Shown here: positions 5,775-39,704 of the stretch, one piece after another | Layout: each line of letters starts with the position of its first letter | Numbering within the stretch: the first letter of the stretch is position 1 | Assembly (NCBI GenBank): GCA_016180645.1 | Contig: JACPAV010000029.1 | Coordinates: forward strand, 1-41,219 | Origin: Nitrospirota bacterium | GTDB lineage: Bacteria; JACPQY01 | DNA length: 41,219 nt | Direction of reading: 5' to 3' | The notes under the pieces: model-generated | Databases searched by the model: none | Told to the model about the DNA's origin: nothing | What the model saw: the letters and a program-made list of their open reading frames with translations, nothing else | Position numbers and translations under genes: made by a program

Positions 5775-7619
5775 CTACTGAGGGAGGAAAGTAGCCGCTC
5801 CGATGAGCGACGACAGATCGCCGAAGAAGGCCGCCATCGCTTTGTTCAGCGAGTAGTTCGACGCCGGAATGGCGCGACTGAGCGGAACGGGATTTTTTTC
5901 CGGGTCGGAACCGACGAACGCCTTGTCGGCGGTCGCGCATAGTTCAGATGTGATCGGGGCGAGATCCACGAAGAGCGATCCGTTCATCGTGGGATCCTGC
6001 CAGTACGCGTATGGCGTGGGAATCGGCGTGGAGATGAGCGTGGTGGCCAGCACGGTTCTCGCCGGCGTGATGCAGTCCTCCGCCAGCGGTTCAATCGGCG
6101 TTTTCAATCGTGCCGAGACCTCGGCATCCGGTGTGAAGAGTCCTGCCGCCGCACCATAGATCTGCGAACTGAAGTGCCCGCCCGGTTTGCAGGTGTGGCA
6201 GTAGACTTCCGCATCATTGGAGTCGACTTCCTGGCGGATGGCTTTCTTGTCCGCGTTGGCGGGAAGTTCGCCCTCGATGAGGAAGATCGGATGCGGGTCG
6301 CCCAAAGCCGTTCCCTCGCCGCCGGGAGGATTGTATGCGCCCCAGACGGGCCCCATCTCGCGCAGAGGTTTCGAGGTGGAGCGATTGCCGGTGAAAAGCT
6401 TGGAGAGGTCGACCGCCATTGTACTCGGGAACGGCGAGAGACCGAGGGGGACGATCGAGTTGAGTTCGGCCAGGTTGAGGAGGTTGGTGGAGCCCTGGAT
6501 GCTCTCGCGAACGCGACGGATCACGCGAATGGCGTTTCCGGGAATAGGGTCGCCCAAGATGGTGAGCAGCAGGCCGGCGGTGCTACCGAAATCCCCGCGT
6601 GAAAGTTCGGCCGGGTAGTTCGTGATTTTCGTGCCGAGGATTTCGAGCGGCGGCTCTGCGCGGACAATGCCGACCCATATCTCATCCCCAAAATCGAGCT
6701 TGCGGTTGCCGTTCTTGTCGACGTAGCCGAGTACGTCGTCCCTCGCGTCCGCGCCCTCGGCTCCGGAGAGAAATTCTTCCAGCCCGGAGGCCAGCAGATC
6801 GAGTCCGCCGGTGAGGAGTCCGGGGGCCTCCACGAGGTGGCCCGCGCGGGAGGCGCTGAATCCGAGGAAAGTTTTCGAGGTGGTCATGACGAGCCCGAGG
6901 TAACGCACCACGCCGATGAGATCGGTTTGCGGAATGATATCCAGCGTGTCCTGGAGCGCGTACAGATCCGTCGTGATGTCGTGAGCCGAGATGAAAGCAA
7001 CCATTCCCTGCATCAGGCGCAATGTTCCGCCGAGCAGCTTGGCATAGGCCGGCGTGAAGTCCGTGCCGATCCAGGCGGTGGATTCGAGTCCGGTGGCGAT
7101 CGGGACCCCTTCCGGGCCGGTGAGGTAGTGGCATCCCCCCTTCGCCGCGGTTTCGAGGGCGGAGGCCGCAGGATCGATGTATTCGGAGAAGAAGGGATCG
7201 ATCATGTTGTTGATGATCGCGTCGGGATTGCCGCGTTCCGATACCGGAGGGCCGCTCGACCGGCGTGAGACTGCGTGGGAAGAGACCTTTGCGCGGGATG
7301 GTAAAGCCGCAGGCGGCATCATCCCCGTGATCGGCTCCGTCAGCCCTCCCAGATCGGTGATCGACGTGAAAATGTCCGACCCGAATCCGTGGAGCACCGC
7401 CAGCCCGAAACCGTACTCGGCGATGCAGCGCCCCTCATCCGTGGAGGCCGTGAGCCGGGCCTGATCGAACTCGACGACAGCGGGGCGGTAGTATCCCTTC
7501 TTCAGGAATTCCTGCGCCTTGACCAGATGGTCCGTCGCCGGTTCCGACGTGCAGGCACAGGCCAGGAGCAGCCCAACTATAGAGGCTAAGCCTCTATAGT
7601 GACTTCCGGTATCCGTCAT
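5775..7619 (-). CDS. large putative lipoprotein, 614 aa, unknown function
   Basis: The start is ATG 7619, overlapping the esterase stop (ATGA). A short leader with a hydrophobic core ends in LLLACAC, a lipobox, so the mature protein is probably membrane-anchored in the envelope. Residues after the lipobox (HLVKAQEFLKKGYYRPAVVEFDQA) look like one TPR-type helix pair, and DKNGNRKLDFGDE resembles an EF-hand/dockerin calcium loop. The rest is mainly helical with no recognised catalytic motif; several Cys near the C-terminus (CHTC, CITP, ELCATA) could form disulfides or bind metal. The signal-peptide codons contain a perfect 25-base palindrome found again near 37.1 kb. I do not recognise a family. 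Confidence 0.7.
   Translation of the reverse strand: MTDTGSHYRGLASIVGLLLACACTSEPATDHLVKAQEFLKKGYYRPAVVEFDQARLTASTDEGRCIAEYGFGLAVLHGFGSDIFTSITDLGGLTEPITGMMPPAALPSRAKVSSHAVSRRSSGPPVSERGNPDAIINNMIDPFFSEYIDPAASALETAAKGGCHYLTGPEGVPIATGLESTAWIGTDFTPAYAKLLGGTLRLMQGMVAFISAHDITTDLYALQDTLDIIPQTDLIGVVRYLGLVMTTSKTFLGFSASRAGHLVEAPGLLTGGLDLLASGLEEFLSGAEGADARDDVLGYVDKNGNRKLDFGDEIWVGIVRAEPPLEILGTKITNYPAELSRGDFGSTAGLLLTILGDPIPGNAIRVIRRVRESIQGSTNLLNLAELNSIVPLGLSPFPSTMAVDLSKLFTGNRSTSKPLREMGPVWGAYNPPGGEGTALGDPHPIFLIEGELPANADKKAIRQEVDSNDAEVYCHTCKPGGHFSSQIYGAAAGLFTPDAEVSARLKTPIEPLAEDCITPARTVLATTLISTPIPTPYAYWQDPTMNGSLFVDLAPITSELCATADKAFVGSDPEKNPVPLSRAIPASNYSLNKAMAAFFGDLSSLIGAATFLPQ
7576..7600. repeat. 25-bp perfect palindrome inside a signal-peptide coding region
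   Basis: ACTATAGAGGCT and its exact reverse complement flank a single central base. The minus-strand gene reads through it as HYRGLASIV, part of the leader of the 614-residue lipoprotein. Two diverged copies of the same 24-base arm occur at 37102-37125 and 37139-37162. Confidence 0.9.
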
Positions 7620-13701: not shown

Positions 13702-13737
13702 ATTTGAGATCTCAAATCTCAAATTTCAAATCTCAGA
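13702..13737. repeat. heptamer tandem array and palindrome abutting the thrS start
   Basis: ATTTGAGATCTCAAAT (13702-13717) is a perfect 16-base palindrome. From 13710 to 13737 there are four 7-base units: TCTCAAA, TCTCAAA, TTTCAAA, TCTCAGA. The thrS ATG is at 13741 and no Shine-Dalgarno sequence fits in between, so the array replaces the normal ribosome-binding region. Confidence 0.8.
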
Positions 13738-13740
13738 TTG

Positions 13741-24753: not shown

Positions 24754-24770
24754 TGCGTTCGGACATCTGC

Positions 24771-24829
24771 GTAGGGGAGGGTCTTCAGACCCTCCCGCAA
24801 AGAGGGAGCATCCAAGGATGCTCCGCTAC
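24771..24829. repeat. twin-hairpin element, copy A
   Basis: Outer GTAGGGGAG (from 24771) and CTCCGCTAC (to 24829) enclose two hairpins: GGGAGGGTCTTCAGACCCTCCC-type and GGGAGCATCCAAGGATGCTCC-type, separated by GCAAAGA. It lies 20 bases before trxB and would be in its leader. One outer base pair is altered relative to other copies. Confidence 0.88.
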
Positions 24830-24849
24830 GAGGAGGCACACCTACACCT

Positions 24850-27558: not shown

Positions 27559-27781
27559 GGGATTGCGAGAAAACAAAGTTCACATGTTGGGCCGGCATCC
27601 GGCCTTCGCAGCCGCTTGGGCGGAGCGGGCAGCCGCCCCCTACGAAGGATCTCCTATCTTGGTAGGGGAGCAGCTTTAGCTGCTCCCTCTTCTCTTGGGA
27701 GGACCTAAAGGTCCTCCCCTACCCGATCGGTCTTGGCCGCCCTCTTCGTGCGATTGAGTAGCTTGTTTCCTCGCAATCCCT
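27558..27781. repeat. 224-bp MITE-like element with 19-bp terminal inverted repeats
   Basis: Left arm 27558-27576 (AGGGATTGCGAGAAAACAA) and right arm 27763-27781 match as inverted repeats at 18 of 19 bases. Inside are a GGCCGG/CCGGCC hairpin (27590-27604), a GGGCGG/CCGCCC hairpin ending CCCCCTAC near 27642, and the twin-hairpin copy at 27662-27722. It fills the whole gap between two convergent genes and has no coding capacity. It could also act as a bidirectional terminator. Confidence 0.7.
27662..27722. repeat. twin-hairpin element, copy B
   Basis: GTAGGGGAG and CTCCCCTAC arms enclose GGAGCAGCTTTAGCTGCTCC and GGGAGGACCTAAAGGTCCTCCC hairpins with a pyrimidine-rich linker. It carries the same two stems as copy C at 34184. 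Confidence 0.9.
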
Positions 27782-30842: not shown

Positions 30843-32534
30843 TCAATTCAGGCACGCAAAGGCTTCGGAGGGGAGGAGGAAACGGGCACCGGAGGATTCG
30901 AGAGATGGAAGGGTTTGCGCGAGGCCTTCATACGTGTTGCCCCAAACGGAGGCGCTGAGGAATGTGATGGGATCGCCGCGGGCCGAAGACCCGTTGAGGA
31001 CGGCGTTGATGCGGTCGGCGAAGGTGGCGGGCGTGTCTTCGTACTGGCTGGCCACGGCCAGTGCCCACTTGCCGTCGCCGTACTGAAAGCTTTTCGAGCC
31101 GGGGAATTCGACATAACCGACGAGGAAACCTTTATTGGCCGTGCCGGCTTCAACGGCGGCGATGGTCTTCCATGTCGGATCACTCGCCGTCAGGAGCGGA
31201 ACGTCCAGGAACCACGTGGATGTCAGGCCGAGCCGTCCTGCGGTTTCAAAGCTTTTCCTCATGAACTCCTCCGCGGACCGATGATACGCCGGGAGGGCGT
31301 AGCCGATTCCCATCATCGAAACCCATTCGTCATTCGGGGTTACGCCGCTGAGATAGTAATCCATGGCGGCGGGCCCCAGCGCGAGGAGCGAGAGGCCGAT
31401 GCTCCAACCGACGGGCAGGGCTCCGCGCAACGGGCTCTCCCAGTAGTCGGGGCGGACATACCGGTTGAAAGGGATGGACACGTTGTCCGCATCACTGATG
31501 GCGACAACAAATCGGGCCTTGCCCGAGGAGCAGATCGAGCCGGAACCTCCGACCGCAGCGTGTGGCACGGAAGGCGGTTGGGACGGAACCACAGCCGAGT
31601 GAACGGAGAGATTGCTCGTCGTATCGGAAGGCACCAGGAACAAGCCGGCTTCGGAGATGGCCTTCACCGCCAGAAACTCCTCCACGCCATTGAGGGCGAT
31701 GTAGCCGTAGATGGGGGTGACCGCGGGCAGGAGATTAAAGAGGGACCGCACCTTTTCCCACTGTTCCATGAGGGGCCGCGCGTATGCGGTCATCACTCCC
31801 TGCTGGATTAGAAAATCGCGAAGACGGAATTCCGTCGGCGTGAGATCGGCGAGGCGCGGGAAAGTTTGCCCCCTAAGTCGCCGCTCGACCTCGGCGAGCG
31901 CTTCGCTTTCTGATTTGAACATGCCCCTCAGATCGACCCTCTCCGCGCTCGGGAGGTATGCGGCGGCCGTGTCCTCGATGGAATCGAACAGAATCACACC
32001 GGGATCAACGGCGGCCATCGCATGAGCGATGTGAAGGCTCCAGGGTTCCTTCGCCGAAACCAGGTAGACCCGCCTCACGCTGGAACCGAACAGGGACAAC
32101 GCCCCACTGAGATCGATCGAATCTTCCCATTTCACCCCGTATCGGTCTCGATAGACGTTCATCCAGAAGCGAGCGCTCATGCCATCCTCGTCGGTTTCCC
32201 ACGGTCGATCGCCTTCCTTGCCGCCGCCGATCAGATAGAGACGGACCTCATCGCGATTGATCGTTCCTTGGAGGGTCGAAGCCAGAATGTTTCGCTCCAA
32301 GTTCTCGTCCGCCAGCGTGACGGGATAGATTTTCCCCAGAGGTGGTCGGCGATTGAGATACATCTGATCGAAAGCCGAGAGGCCGGAGGAGAGTGGGCTG
32401 TTGTTGTCGCACCCGGCGACAGTGAGCATCAGGCAGCAAGCGGTGAGGGCGAGGCGCGTGATCCCGTGATCCCGTGATCCCGTGATCCCGATCAGGTCCG
32501 TTTTCGGGCTTCTTTCTGATTCCCTCGGGTTCAC
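30843..32534 (-). CDS. GxGYxYP-type putative glycoside hydrolase lipoprotein
   Basis: 563 residues from GTG 32534. The leader (SLIG-like ITGSRDHGITRLALTACC, lipobox TVAGC) is built from octamer and heptamer DNA repeats shared with the next gene. The body has AISDADNVSIPFNRYV, resembling the VSDGDN motif, and MMGIGYALPAYH, resembling the family's GxGYxYP word, with ASTLQGTINRDEVRLYLIGG near the N-terminus. These proteins resemble polysaccharide-active hydrolases, but activity is unproven. It lies 22 bases upstream of the PHP lipoprotein and behind the cytochrome gene. Confidence 0.65.
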   Translation of the reverse strand: MNPRESERSPKTDLIGITGSRDHGITRLALTACCLMLTVAGCDNNSPLSSGLSAFDQMYLNRRPPLGKIYPVTLADENLERNILASTLQGTINRDEVRLYLIGGGKEGDRPWETDEDGMSARFWMNVYRDRYGVKWEDSIDLSGALSLFGSSVRRVYLVSAKEPWSLHIAHAMAAVDPGVILFDSIEDTAAAYLPSAERVDLRGMFKSESEALAEVERRLRGQTFPRLADLTPTEFRLRDFLIQQGVMTAYARPLMEQWEKVRSLFNLLPAVTPIYGYIALNGVEEFLAVKAISEAGLFLVPSDTTSNLSVHSAVVPSQPPSVPHAAVGGSGSICSSGKARFVVAISDADNVSIPFNRYVRPDYWESPLRGALPVGWSIGLSLLALGPAAMDYYLSGVTPNDEWVSMMGIGYALPAYHRSAEEFMRKSFETAGRLGLTSTWFLDVPLLTASDPTWKTIAAVEAGTANKGFLVGYVEFPGSKSFQYGDGKWALAVASQYEDTPATFADRINAVLNGSSARGDPITFLSASVWGNTYEGLAQTLPSLESSGARFLLPSEAFACLN

Positions 32535-32559
32535 GGGTTCACGATTTACGGGCTCACGA
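32454..32559. repeat. 106-bp composite repeat, copy 1 (octamer arrays in inverted orientation)
   Basis: CGTGATCC occurs four times in tandem (32457-32488). After a spacer, inverse-type units (GGTTCACG twice, ATTTACG, GGCTCACG) run to 32559. The segment spans the start and leader codons of the GxGYxYP-type gene. It aligns over its full 106 bases with copy 2, about 950 bases away in the same orientation. A degenerate heptamer array follows at 32421-32448. Confidence 0.88.
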
Positions 32560-32561
32560 CC

Positions 32562-33515
32562 TCACGGCCAGAAGGCCGTCGTCGGATTGTGCCCCGAGAC
32601 GTGGCAGTTGTAGCACATGGCGTTCGACAAGGTCTGGTCATTTTCATAGCCGTGACACACCGAACAGTTTGAGGGCATTGCGCTGCTGCGCTTGGATTGA
32701 ATGAACATCAAGTGCAGTTCGTGGAGTCCCTGGCCGCTTGCGGCCTCCGGCGTCTTTGTGGCGAAGGAGTGACAATCTGTGCAGGTCGCAATCGTCCCGT
32801 GGCGCGGATCCTGGAAGGAGTGGCAGCCGACGCACCCCGGTGCGATGAATTGGACCTTGGCGCCGCTCTTGCGCGGTTTGTCGGCAGGATAGCCCTTCTC
32901 GAACACATCGGTGTGACGCGTCCGAGTTTGAGTCAGCATTTCGTATGGTCTGCCGGGTCCATCATACGTTCCTCCCGTACCGAGGTCCGGGTGGGCCGAG
33001 CTGCGTACCTGATTCGGCAGCCAGAGGTGGCAGGACGAGGCGCAATCGCCCTTCGACTCGGTGACACCCGGCGGGTAAGCATCGAGTGAATGTCGGCTGC
33101 CGGTTGAGGTGACCGGATGGCAAGTGAAGCAGGTGTCGGGTTCCAGCGTGAAGGCCGGGTGCCGGCCGCGACGCGGCCAATCGAGAACATACTCCTCCAA
33201 TCCCGTGAAAGGTGACGTTCGGGCGAGCAGCCCCTTCGATGAAGTACCGAGCCATTCTCTCGGACCATCCGCATCGCTGCCGCGGGCAGCCGTGAGAGCG
33301 GCATAATCGTGACACGTCGAGCATTCGACGCCCACGCGGGGCTTGTCCTCGTCGGCGCAGCCGGCGAGGGTGAACAGTAAGCAGTAAGCAGTGAGCAGCA
33401 AGCGCGTGATCCCGTGATCCCGTGAGCCCGTGAGCCCGATCAGACTCGTTTTCAGGCCGTTCTCTGATTCCGTCTGGTTCACGGGTTCACGATTCACGGG
33501 CTCACGATTTGCCAT
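32562..33515 (-). CDS. seven-heme c-type cytochrome lipoprotein
   Basis: 317 residues from ATG 33515, next to the upstream TGA. The leader, partly encoded by DNA repeats, ends in lipobox TLAGC (Cys53). Six CX2CH heme sites (Cys65, 129, 228, 245, 284, 301) and one CX3CH site (CASSCH, Cys158) follow. Many extra His (RHP, SRH, RHTD, LHELHL, SGHN) can supply distal ligands. It should sit on the periplasmic or outer face and carry electrons. Its partners are probably the GMC oxidoreductase and small Tat subunit encoded just upstream. Confidence 0.9.
   Translation of the reverse strand: MANREPVNREPVNQTESENGLKTSLIGLTGSRDHGITRLLLTAYCLLFTLAGCADEDKPRVGVECSTCHDYAALTAARGSDADGPREWLGTSSKGLLARTSPFTGLEEYVLDWPRRGRHPAFTLEPDTCFTCHPVTSTGSRHSLDAYPPGVTESKGDCASSCHLWLPNQVRSSAHPDLGTGGTYDGPGRPYEMLTQTRTRHTDVFEKGYPADKPRKSGAKVQFIAPGCVGCHSFQDPRHGTIATCTDCHSFATKTPEAASGQGLHELHLMFIQSKRSSAMPSNCSVCHGYENDQTLSNAMCYNCHVSGHNPTTAFWP
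33402..33507. repeat. 106-bp composite repeat, copy 2, with heptamer array next to it
   Basis: CGTGATCC twice, then CGTGAGCC twice, a spacer, and inverse units GGTTCACG, GGTTCACG, ATTCACG, GGCTCACG. Directly adjoining at 33376-33403 is a 7-base array: AGTAAGC, AGTAAGC, AGTGAGC, AGCAAGC. On the minus strand the heptamers encode the hydrophobic core LLLTAYCLL of the cytochrome leader and the octamers encode GSRDHGITR. Confidence 0.9.
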
Positions 33516-34183: not shown

Positions 34184-34242
34184 GTAGGGGAGCAGCTTTA
34201 GCTGCTCCCTCATCTTGGGAGGACCTAAAGGTCCTCCCCTAC
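34184..34242. repeat. twin-hairpin element, copy C
   Basis: GTAGGGGAGC and CTCCCCTAC arms with the same two stems as copy B (GCAGCTTTAGCTGC and GGACCTAAAGGTCC) and linker TCATCTT instead of the longer B linker. It separates the GMC gene from its small subunit gene, so it lies inside the probable operon. Confidence 0.9.
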
Positions 34243-35810: not shown

Positions 35811-37124
35811 ATGGTGTACCCGGATGCCGCGATGGCGGCGGTCGAAATGCAAGCCCTCCATGATGCGCATATGGAGGCGGTATACCGGAGCGCAGGCGAC
35901 CCCCGGGAGTGGGCACGAGCGATGGAACAGCTCGGCCGGGAATCGGCGAATCGCCAGGGGGAGGGGGGGAGCAGGCTGACCCCTTTGGAGCGGCTGTACC
36001 TCTACTGCCACCTTGAGATTTCGACCGATCCCGTGCGAGCGGCATCGCTCCAACCGGTCCTTCGAAAGTACCTCGATGCATGGCCCGACGATTTCTTCCT
36101 CCTCTACGCGGAAACCGAACTCAGCAATCTTCTCGGCGTAGACTCCCCCCATCGAGACCGGCTCGTCCACGCGGTCGTCTCGGATCGAACGGCTCCGCCG
36201 GTTCCCTTTGACCACCAACTCTCGCGCTCGTCGAACCCGGTCCTTTCTGTTTGCGTGTCCACGTGGAATCGCGTCGATTCAATCCGAAGACTCCTCGATA
36301 GCGTCCGACTCCATACACACGTGCCTTTCGAAATTCTCGTGGTCGACAACGGCAGCACGGATGGCACCCTCCCGTACCTGGCCTCGATGCGGAATGGGTT
36401 TCCGGAGTTGGGCGTGATTCTGTCACGCGGGCATCGATCGACCCTCGATGCGTACCGGCTGGCGTTCGGCCTCGTGCGCGGTTCCATCATCGGGGCCTTG
36501 GCGGACGACACCGAGGTCACGCCCGGCTGGGCGGAAGCGCTCGTCGCTGCGCTTCAATCGGATTCTCGAATCGGGACGGCCTTCCCGCTTGTATTGGAAT
36601 CGGACGGTGCAGTGGACCGGCTCGGCTCGTGTGTCCCCTATTCGAGCCGGAAACACCCGTGGGTCGGAAAACACGGCCCGCTGCCATACCGTCAAGGCGT
36701 GCCCCCGGATCAGGCGAATCTTCCAGGAGGCCCATTCGATTCCGAAGGCGGGGCCTATCCGTTCCTGCGGAGAAACGTGCTTGCCCGATTGAACATCTTC
36801 GATCCGCGGTACGTTCATGTGTGGGACAACGATCTCGCCCTTGAATCCCGTTCGAAAGGATTGCGAAACGTTACGTGTCCTGGGAGCCGGATTATCGATC
36901 ACCGGGTGATACACGAGGGTCCGCGCGTGGACGGAGCGGAAGTCGGCGGCTCGTTCGGCCTGAAGCTCTTTCATGATCCCGATTCGGCCCTGGCTGCCTT
37001 GCGGGCCCCCGACTCGATTGTTATGCGATACTTCAGGGATGACCTCCTGCTACAGTGCAAATGGTGGGCCTTCCGGATCCGGCCATGCAATAGGCAGGCG
37101 TCTATCGAGGTTAAGCCTCTATAG
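35811..37124 (+). CDS. GT2-family glycosyltransferase with N-terminal extension
   Basis: 437 residues from ATG 35811 (ATG 35832 is an alternative). Residues 1-140 are helical and not recognised. The GT-A domain starts at VLSVCVSTWNRVDSIRRLLD, then ILVVDNGSTDGTLPYL and GALADDTEVTPGW (DDT in place of DxD), later GGAYPFLRRNVLARLNIFDPRY and HVWDNDLALESRSKG. It transfers a sugar from a nucleotide donor. The last codons (IEVKPL) are encoded by the 24-base repeat arm at 37102. It is divergent from the GMC gene, with about 107 bases between starts. Confidence 0.8.
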   Translation: MVYPDAAMAAVEMQALHDAHMEAVYRSAGDPREWARAMEQLGRESANRQGEGGSRLTPLERLYLYCHLEISTDPVRAASLQPVLRKYLDAWPDDFFLLYAETELSNLLGVDSPHRDRLVHAVVSDRTAPPVPFDHQLSRSSNPVLSVCVSTWNRVDSIRRLLDSVRLHTHVPFEILVVDNGSTDGTLPYLASMRNGFPELGVILSRGHRSTLDAYRLAFGLVRGSIIGALADDTEVTPGWAEALVAALQSDSRIGTAFPLVLESDGAVDRLGSCVPYSSRKHPWVGKHGPLPYRQGVPPDQANLPGGPFDSEGGAYPFLRRNVLARLNIFDPRYVHVWDNDLALESRSKGLRNVTCPGSRIIDHRVIHEGPRVDGAEVGGSFGLKLFHDPDSALAALRAPDSIVMRYFRDDLLLQCKWWAFRIRPCNRQASIEVKPL

Positions 37125-37162
37125 TGATCCGGCGGGTAACTATAGAGGCTTGGCCTCGATAG
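37102..37162. repeat. inverted pair of 24-bp repeat arms
   Basis: Arms 37102-37125 and 37139-37162 are inverted copies (22 of 24 matches) around a 13-base loop. The first forms the end of the glycosyltransferase gene. Both contain the CTATAGAGGCT word of the palindrome at 7576-7600. Confidence 0.9.
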
Positions 37163-37175
37163 GGCGGGAGGCGGC

Positions 37176-39057: not shown

Positions 39058-39181
39058 AGACACTAAGAGGCGGCCGCCCCTTAGCGTCTAACAGAATGCG
39101 GATTCGTAGGGGAGCATCTTCAGATGCTCCCTCTTGTCGGGAGGGTCTGAAGACCCTCCCCTACGCATTCTGTTAGACGCT
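39058..39181. repeat. nested inverted repeats containing twin-hairpin element, copy D
   Basis: Twin-hairpin copy D spans 39106-39164 (GTAGGGGAGCATCTTCAGATGCTCCC-type and GGGAGGGTCTGAAGACCCTCCC-type stems). It is enclosed by perfect 17-base arms 39083-39099 and 39165-39181 (AGCGTCTAACAGAATGC). The left arm can alternatively pair with AGACACTAAG at 39058-39067 (9 of 10), giving two mutually exclusive folds. The 219-base gap 39015-39233 holds nothing else. Confidence 0.88.
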
Positions 39182-39233: not shown

Positions 39234-39704
39234 CTACGATTCGTTTTGGACGTCGCCGAGGTACCAGGTGCCGCCGAGGAGTTTCCACGTCTCGTGGCTC
39301 TTCACGTTGGAGGTGGTGCCGTCGGTTTTCTTGTGGGTCCATTCCACAAGAAGCTTGGCCTGCGTGGGATCGTCCTTGGAGATTTCGGCTGATAGGATCC
39401 TCGCGGCGGTCGGCCGGCCGGTCAGCTGAAACGCTACTTTCAACGCTTGAAACGTCATCTGAAGAATGGTGTCGCGCAGCTTGGGATCGAGGTTGGGGTC
39501 GGGGAGGTTGAACTCGCCGCTCTTTGGATCGCCCGCGATGATTTTCTGGTGGTACTCGTCGGCCCGCTGCTTCAGCGAGGCCACGCGGGGATTCTCGCAG
39601 GCGGCGGTGGCAAGTAGTGAGTAGTGAATGGTGAGTAGCAGGAGCAGGAATCGAAGCGGGTCCCCTCTCACATTACTCCTCGCGCCTCTCGACTTGCCAC
39701 TCAC
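39234..39704 (-). CDS. small lipoprotein, 156 aa, repeat-encoded leader
   Basis: The start is GTG 39704. A long leader (SGKSRGARSNVRGDPLRFLLLLLTIHYSLL) ends in lipobox TAAC. The mature domain (about 120 residues) has SLKQRADEYHQKIIAGDPK, a middle helix and C-terminal strands SHETWKLLGGTWYLGD, resembling small NTF2/DUF4878-like lipoproteins, though I cannot name it. Both its start codon and its hydrophobic core lie in 7-base tandem arrays (39691-39718 and 39612-39639). It is directly downstream of the acyl-CoA dehydrogenase. Confidence 0.65.
   Translation of the reverse strand: MSGKSRGARSNVRGDPLRFLLLLLTIHYSLLATAACENPRVASLKQRADEYHQKIIAGDPKSGEFNLPDPNLDPKLRDTILQMTFQALKVAFQLTGRPTAARILSAEISKDDPTQAKLLVEWTHKKTDGTTSNVKSHETWKLLGGTWYLGDVQNES
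39612..39639. repeat. heptamer array in a lipoprotein leader
   Basis: Four 7-base units AAGTAGT, GAGTAGT, GAATGGT, GAGTAGC; the minus strand reads them as LLTIHYSLL. A second 7-base array (GACTTGC, CACTCAC, GACTTAC, GACTTGC) at 39691-39718 contains the GTG start codon of the same gene. Confidence 0.75.

Follow-up and report, generated by a model that had tools for sequence, protein, structure and literature searches.

A leader segment of short tandem repeats is duplicated between neighbouring lipoprotein genes of a Nitrospirota bacterium

The window, that is, the whole stretch of 41,219 nucleotides analysed here, is one entire contig (G000:C29) of a Nitrospirota genome of 4.72 Mb in 65 contigs. 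Two neighbouring genes of an operon on its minus strand encode lipoproteins: a GxGYxYP protein of 563 aa (30843..32534; Pfam PF14323, PF20958 and PF16216), with a GTG start and its cysteine at residue 42, and a cytochrome c7-type protein of 317 aa (32562..33515; Pfam PF14522), whose ATG follows the upstream gene's stop codon without a gap (TGAATG). A repeat search of the window identified a direct repeat of 157 nt, with one copy in the GxGYxYP gene (copy 1, 32403–32559) and one in the cytochrome gene (copy 2, 33351–33507), both on the minus strand, 82% identical and with starts 948 nt apart. In a local alignment, the similarity runs from a first octamer arm through a 39-nt spacer, a second octamer arm and a heptamer stretch to the lipobox Cys codon, and both copies hold the entire leader including the lipobox. 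The original prediction had described 106-base segments that align about 950 bases apart, each spanning the 5′ coding end of a separate lipoprotein gene, with octamer arms that are mutually inverted and can form a hairpin. Each of these points was borne out: the 106 bases are the middle of the 157-nt repeat, the two genes are distinct by their Pfam families and the arms pair strongly, as described below.

A single unit, CGTGANCC, makes up both arms, in opposite orientations. On the coding strand, the left arm reads CGTGAGCC CGTRAAT CGTGAACC CGTGAACC, with a single 7-base unit among 8-base units, and is followed after the spacer by a right arm of about four units of GGGATCAC or GGGCTCAC. In copy 1, Tandem Repeats Finder reported a plus-strand array, (CGTGATCC)4.2, with 100% matches (32457..32490), which on the minus strand reads GITGSRDHGIT, and a facing repeat at 32526–32558; the full facing arm lies on the minus strand (32526..32566; CGTGAGCC CGTAAAT CGTGAACC CGTGAACC) and supplies the GTG start at 32534. 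The same program found the arms of copy 2 as a plus-strand array of 4.8 units (33401..33438, of which 33405..33438 is the octamer array) and a facing repeat at 33476–33506, within a minus-strand arm coding NREPVNREPVN (33476..33509), together with a plus-strand heptamer array of CAGTAAG (33375..33403) whose minus strand codes the hydrophobic core LLTAYCLL ahead of the lipobox. This clean heptamer array of the cytochrome gene has a degenerate counterpart in the GxGYxYP gene, where a minus-strand match coding RLALTACCLMLTVAGC (32409..32456) was placed by alignment to copy 2, with the heptamer register read by eye. Since the octamers code the polar N-terminal stretch (NREPVN...GSRDHGITR) and the heptamers the greasy core (LLTAYCLLFTLAGC, LALTACCLMLTVAGC), the signal-peptide core and lipobox are derived from heptamers rather than octamers. 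By our own rule, the features of a lipoprotein signal peptide (Sec/SPII), namely a charged n-region, a hydrophobic core and a lipobox, are present in both RLALTACCLMLTVAGC and RLLLTAYCLLFTLAGC. A third lipoprotein-like leader of the window (LLLLLTIHYSLLATAAC; gene 39234–39704, minus strand) also holds a heptamer array (39613..39638, plus strand; Tandem Repeats Finder). Folding each copy as single-stranded DNA gave energies of −33.8 and −32.1 kcal/mol (z = −6.1 and −6.3), values that no shuffle equals, and DNA hairpins of two further elements gave z = −5.0 and −3.4.

Among 18 two-armed elements, the spacers are alike in the window pair alone (score 20, compared with 14 for the best of 20 shuffles), while those of the other 16 are unrelated; spacers range from 13 to 68 nt. 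Chance is thereby excluded as the origin of the window repeat, given this unique spacer match and the excess of arrays over shuffled sequence reported below. Had the element been captured twice independently, the two spacers would differ; either one leader was therefore copied from the other or both derive from a common segment. Together with the alignment through the lipobox Cys, this identifies the leader pair as a local copy, made via local duplication or conversion, and the neighbouring lipoprotein genes share a predicted export signal because tandem-repeat DNA was copied between gene starts.

A search of the whole 4.7-Mb genome identified approximately 32 octamer elements which, by our reading, comprise about 11 in genes, where they sit in frame, 6 in the leaders of proteins predicted to be exported and about 15 in intergenic DNA or at gene ends. 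We therefore rejected the octamer as a leader specific to lipoproteins, since most copies are located elsewhere; this distribution, and the fact that the octamer part alone is not hydrophobic, also count against the capture of repeat DNA as leaders proposed below. The earlier view of a mobile repeat exapted as a signal peptide survives in its second half: repeat DNA is used as a predicted signal peptide, but a mobile element is not indicated, as the spacer is not conserved and no target-site duplication was seen. The heptamer CAGTAAG was discarded as the main family, being found at only 2 places in the genome. Confinement of the octamer element to this genome was also ruled out, with 16 matches in the sister genus and 0 in controls. 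A strict two-arm pattern matched one stretch among 84,980 species (one genome each; the genome of the window is possibly absent from this set), in the sister MAG Nitrospirae bacterium NC_groundwater_665.

Arrays were also found in frame inside conserved enzymes. The Ppx/GppA exopolyphosphatase carries two octamer elements, one heptamer array and one REP-like hairpin, all of them in frame and all located in alignment gaps relative to the solved exopolyphosphatase 2j4r. MnmA (L047:3919-5013) has one octamer arm, MnmE (L094:13322-14740) has a heptamer array immediately after its DTAGLR motif, which we take to be the switch II region of GTPases, and in MnmG (L093:3621-5618) an insert of about 35 residues that contains an array separates EPEG from IYPNGISTS. 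The arrays in Ppx, MnmA, MnmE and MnmG match loops that are absent from solved homologues. The last three are tRNA-modification enzymes, each with an in-frame array insert. Within a GMC oxidoreductase gene (L042:4052-4167), a G+C-rich hairpin (CCCTCCCCC...GGGGGAGGG) sits within the spacer between the arms of an octamer element.

Other repeat families share the window. REP-like hairpins (GTAGGGGAGC...GCTCCC / GGGAGGACC...GGTCCTCCCCTAC) lie at 27662–27722, 34184–34242 and 39106–39164, and at 24768–24831; the read-through peptide of this family matches about 90 genomic places, many of them at the ends of contigs, and Ppx holds one copy in frame. A palindrome family (CTATAGAGGCTAAGCCTCTATAG) is found at 7577–7602, 37102–37127 and 37140–37165, with two copies facing each other. 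An intergenic heptamer array of AAATCTC (13709–13739) is one of many intergenic members of its family, which within genes reads SQISNLK, the stop-free strand.

We counted arrays in 1.18 Mb of the same genome (contigs C2–C5 and the window), using a home-made gene caller for starts and a home-made rule rather than SignalP for signal peptides. Arrays with a lag of 7 (n = 56) or 8 (n = 13) were far in excess of the approximately one each expected from a dinucleotide-model shuffle, and other lags from 4 to 13 gave at most four arrays each. Arrays are depleted in genes (42/69, compared with a coding density of 85%; p = 8e-7). Those within genes are concentrated near the start, with 20 of the 42 in the first 60 codons, compared with 15% expected (p = 7e-7), a count that over-extended gene starts would inflate. 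Signal-peptide DNA makes up 1.9% of coding sequence and holds 9/42 in-gene arrays (p = 8e-8), or 6/39 without the window contig (p = 8e-5). The same fixed procedure applied to 0.77 Mb of the sister genus (G001) placed 7/23 in-gene arrays in signal-peptide DNA, compared with 2.2% (p = 4e-7), although three of these seven come from the orthologous operon. Because a greasy array may itself trip the signal-peptide rule, we transplanted array peptides into random genes as a control. The resulting false-call rate was 7–10%, and the observed proportion of 9/20 remained well above it (9.7%; p = 5e-5), which led us to reject circular signal-peptide calls as the source of the excess; without the three window arrays the signal is weaker (6/17 compared with ~10%). 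By position in the first 60 codons, by overlap with signal-peptide DNA and after the transplant control, arrays are thus non-randomly placed relative to starts.

The orientation of in-gene arrays is also informative. As placed, 5/42 have a stop in any frame, whereas 23/42 have stops in all frames when turned round. With unit lengths of 7 or 8, which are not multiples of 3, a stop-free array gives one cyclic peptide in all frames; and with stops mostly on the opposite strand, in-gene arrays survive in the open orientation and can be adopted as leaders. One further leader of octamers followed by a heptamer core (GLTGSRAHGLTCILLFTVHCSLFTSSC) was seen at G000:C2:94745-94876 (L234:1114-2241), in a gene that the caller missed and that has no Pfam match.

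The operon of the window leaders is syntenic in the sister genus, and the orthologues of both window genes have array leaders there too, made of other units: facing GAATCGN-type heptamers, then GTTCACT/TTACTGC-type heptamers. Arrays of different units likewise occupy the same place in both genera in the GMC oxidoreductase and at two sites of an agmatine-deiminase-like enzyme (named by eye), whereas roughly ten further array sites are not common to both. Three array-led genes, encoding LolA (family by Pfam), an adjoining 1230-residue lipoprotein and the C3:91764 product, have sister-genus orthologues with ordinary, array-free leaders. In LolA the array stands for the second half of the signal peptide and the length is almost unchanged, so overwriting rather than insertion is possible. 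A search for MnmE in the sister genus returned weak matches to another GTPase alone. Type IV prepilin-like leaders (before GFTLIE/GFTLVE/GFTLME) hold heptamer arrays in both genera (G000:C5:36145-36859; G001:C33:70967, 71411).

Beyond these genera, TTACTGN arrays were present in 8/386 sampled genomes and TTCACTN arrays in 25/386, and those inspected were mostly intergenic or in doubtful frames. Predicted signal peptides built of arrays were nevertheless found in unrelated genomes for several members of clear export families, namely an OstA-like protein, an fn3 lipoprotein, ATP synthase subunit b and, in G095, both a TonB receptor and an SLT transglycosylase, as examples rather than as a controlled count.

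Several known systems resemble these elements in part. Rickettsia palindromic elements (RPEs) are palindromic DNAs of ~100–150 bp, with several families per genome, that lie in frame within unrelated protein genes and are described as coding a conserved peptide (PMC10969869). The elements studied here are similarly palindromic, with a long hairpin possible (z about −6 for both window copies), and lie in frame within genes in loops absent from homologues (Ppx, two elements). However, they share their arms alone, the spacers being unrelated except in the window pair, their arms are arrays of 7/8-mers and there is no link to Rickettsia; because homology does not extend along the whole of the copies, we rejected the idea of a whole-length RPE-like copy and did not place them in an RPE family, despite similar behaviour. 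Closer in layout are the Gmet_I1–I4 and Gmet_H4 repeats of Geobacter metallireducens, in which three to five tandem 7- or 8-base units are paired on opposite strands at variable distance, in tens of copies, some in genes (PMC2700814). Tandem 7/8-mers are also paired on opposite strands here, with spacers of the range given above, but the Geobacter consensus sequences (GTTGCTYN, TCTCCGTS and MTYCTGA) differ from CGTGANCC and those arrays are interpreted as sites for regulators or as RNAs, rather than as signal peptides or inserts in proteins (PMC2700814). The TAACTGA repeats of Beggiatoaceae are dispersed tandem heptamers with stops on one strand, as here, but are almost all intergenic, upstream of starts and unpaired (PMC4679880). 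Lastly, MITEs and REP/BIME sequences are likewise small, dispersed, non-autonomous inverted-repeat DNA, but the octamer elements lack conserved ends or a conserved spacer, and neither target duplication (flanks by eye) nor a linked transposase was seen, so we did not classify them as MITEs.

Taken as a whole, the leader is probably repeat DNA that was captured as coding sequence, and this leader, all 157 nt of it, was then copied between adjacent genes of the operon. We propose that 7- and 8-base arrays build up between genes and at tolerant in-gene places in this bacterial family. Provided that the start is charged, the core greasy and a cleavage site present, signal peptides tolerate nearly any sequence, and with such loose demands arrays would often be accepted there. 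At this locus, the start codon and the polar n-region would come from octamers, and the core, which continues into the lipobox, from a heptamer array (CTGCTTA, translated as LLTAYCL), before local duplication or gene conversion copied the leader to the neighbouring gene.

It is unlikely that the paired inverted arrays are primarily regulatory, as a protein-binding site or as an mRNA hairpin that hides the GxGYxYP start for translational coupling, with an incidental coding role. The minus-strand RNA does fold at −63.2 and −61.4 kcal/mol (z = −4.5 and −5.4) with the GxGYxYP GTG within the stem, 27 nt past the cytochrome stop, and since the paired opposite-strand octamer and heptamer arrays of like layout in G. 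metallireducens were proposed as global regulator sites (PMC2700814), such a role keeps some weight here. Against it, about one-third of octamer elements lie deep within unrelated genes, and the unit differs between genera at the same site, which is unexpected for a conserved binding site unless the protein changed too. A phase-variable contingency locus, in which slippage of non-triplet units between start and body toggles the lipoproteins on and off, is more doubtful still: the 32457–32490 array lies between start and mature protein and is perfect over its 4.2 units, as recent slippage would give, but arrays generally have just about four units, most of them imperfect, and similar arrays lie in MnmA, MnmE, MnmG and Ppx, which are poor candidates for switching. 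Least probable is that starts were mis-called and the arrays are untranslated intergenic DNA, for although GTG 32534 lacks a clear adjacent Shine–Dalgarno sequence (by eye) and the cytochrome gene has one TTG after the array, 14 codons ahead of the Cys, a list of in-frame starts in the GxGYxYP gene gave GTG 32534 as the only one with a usable signal peptide (the sole candidate 3′ of the array being an ATG six codons ahead of the Cys), an array replaces half of the LolA signal peptide and arrays traverse conserved enzymes in frame. We infer that the leaders are translated from the starts given above and would export their proteins.

Capture of repeat DNA followed by local copying thus remains our preferred account of the window leaders, and the best reading of the wider pattern is that 7/8-mer arrays, being indifferent to frame, repeatedly serve as raw material for signal peptides. 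Short tandem arrays dispersed through genomes and selfish palindromes lying in frame were already known; for signal peptides built of tandem repeats, our literature searches returned no paper, which is weak evidence of novelty. More tentatively, and as a proposal that could well prove too broad, such arrays may be a general, recurrent source of new bacterial signal peptides, as (TTACTGC)n and (GTTCACT)n are greasy in any register and may replace leaders, as in LolA, or give way to other arrays at a given gene start from one genus to another. Repeated capture of arrays as signal peptides, seen in two genera in the controlled count and in unrelated genomes in single cases, would offer proteins a simple route to gain or renew export signals, and the origin of new signal peptides becomes a testable question. 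That one gene start can carry different types of array in the two genera also calls for a mechanism by which arrays spread.
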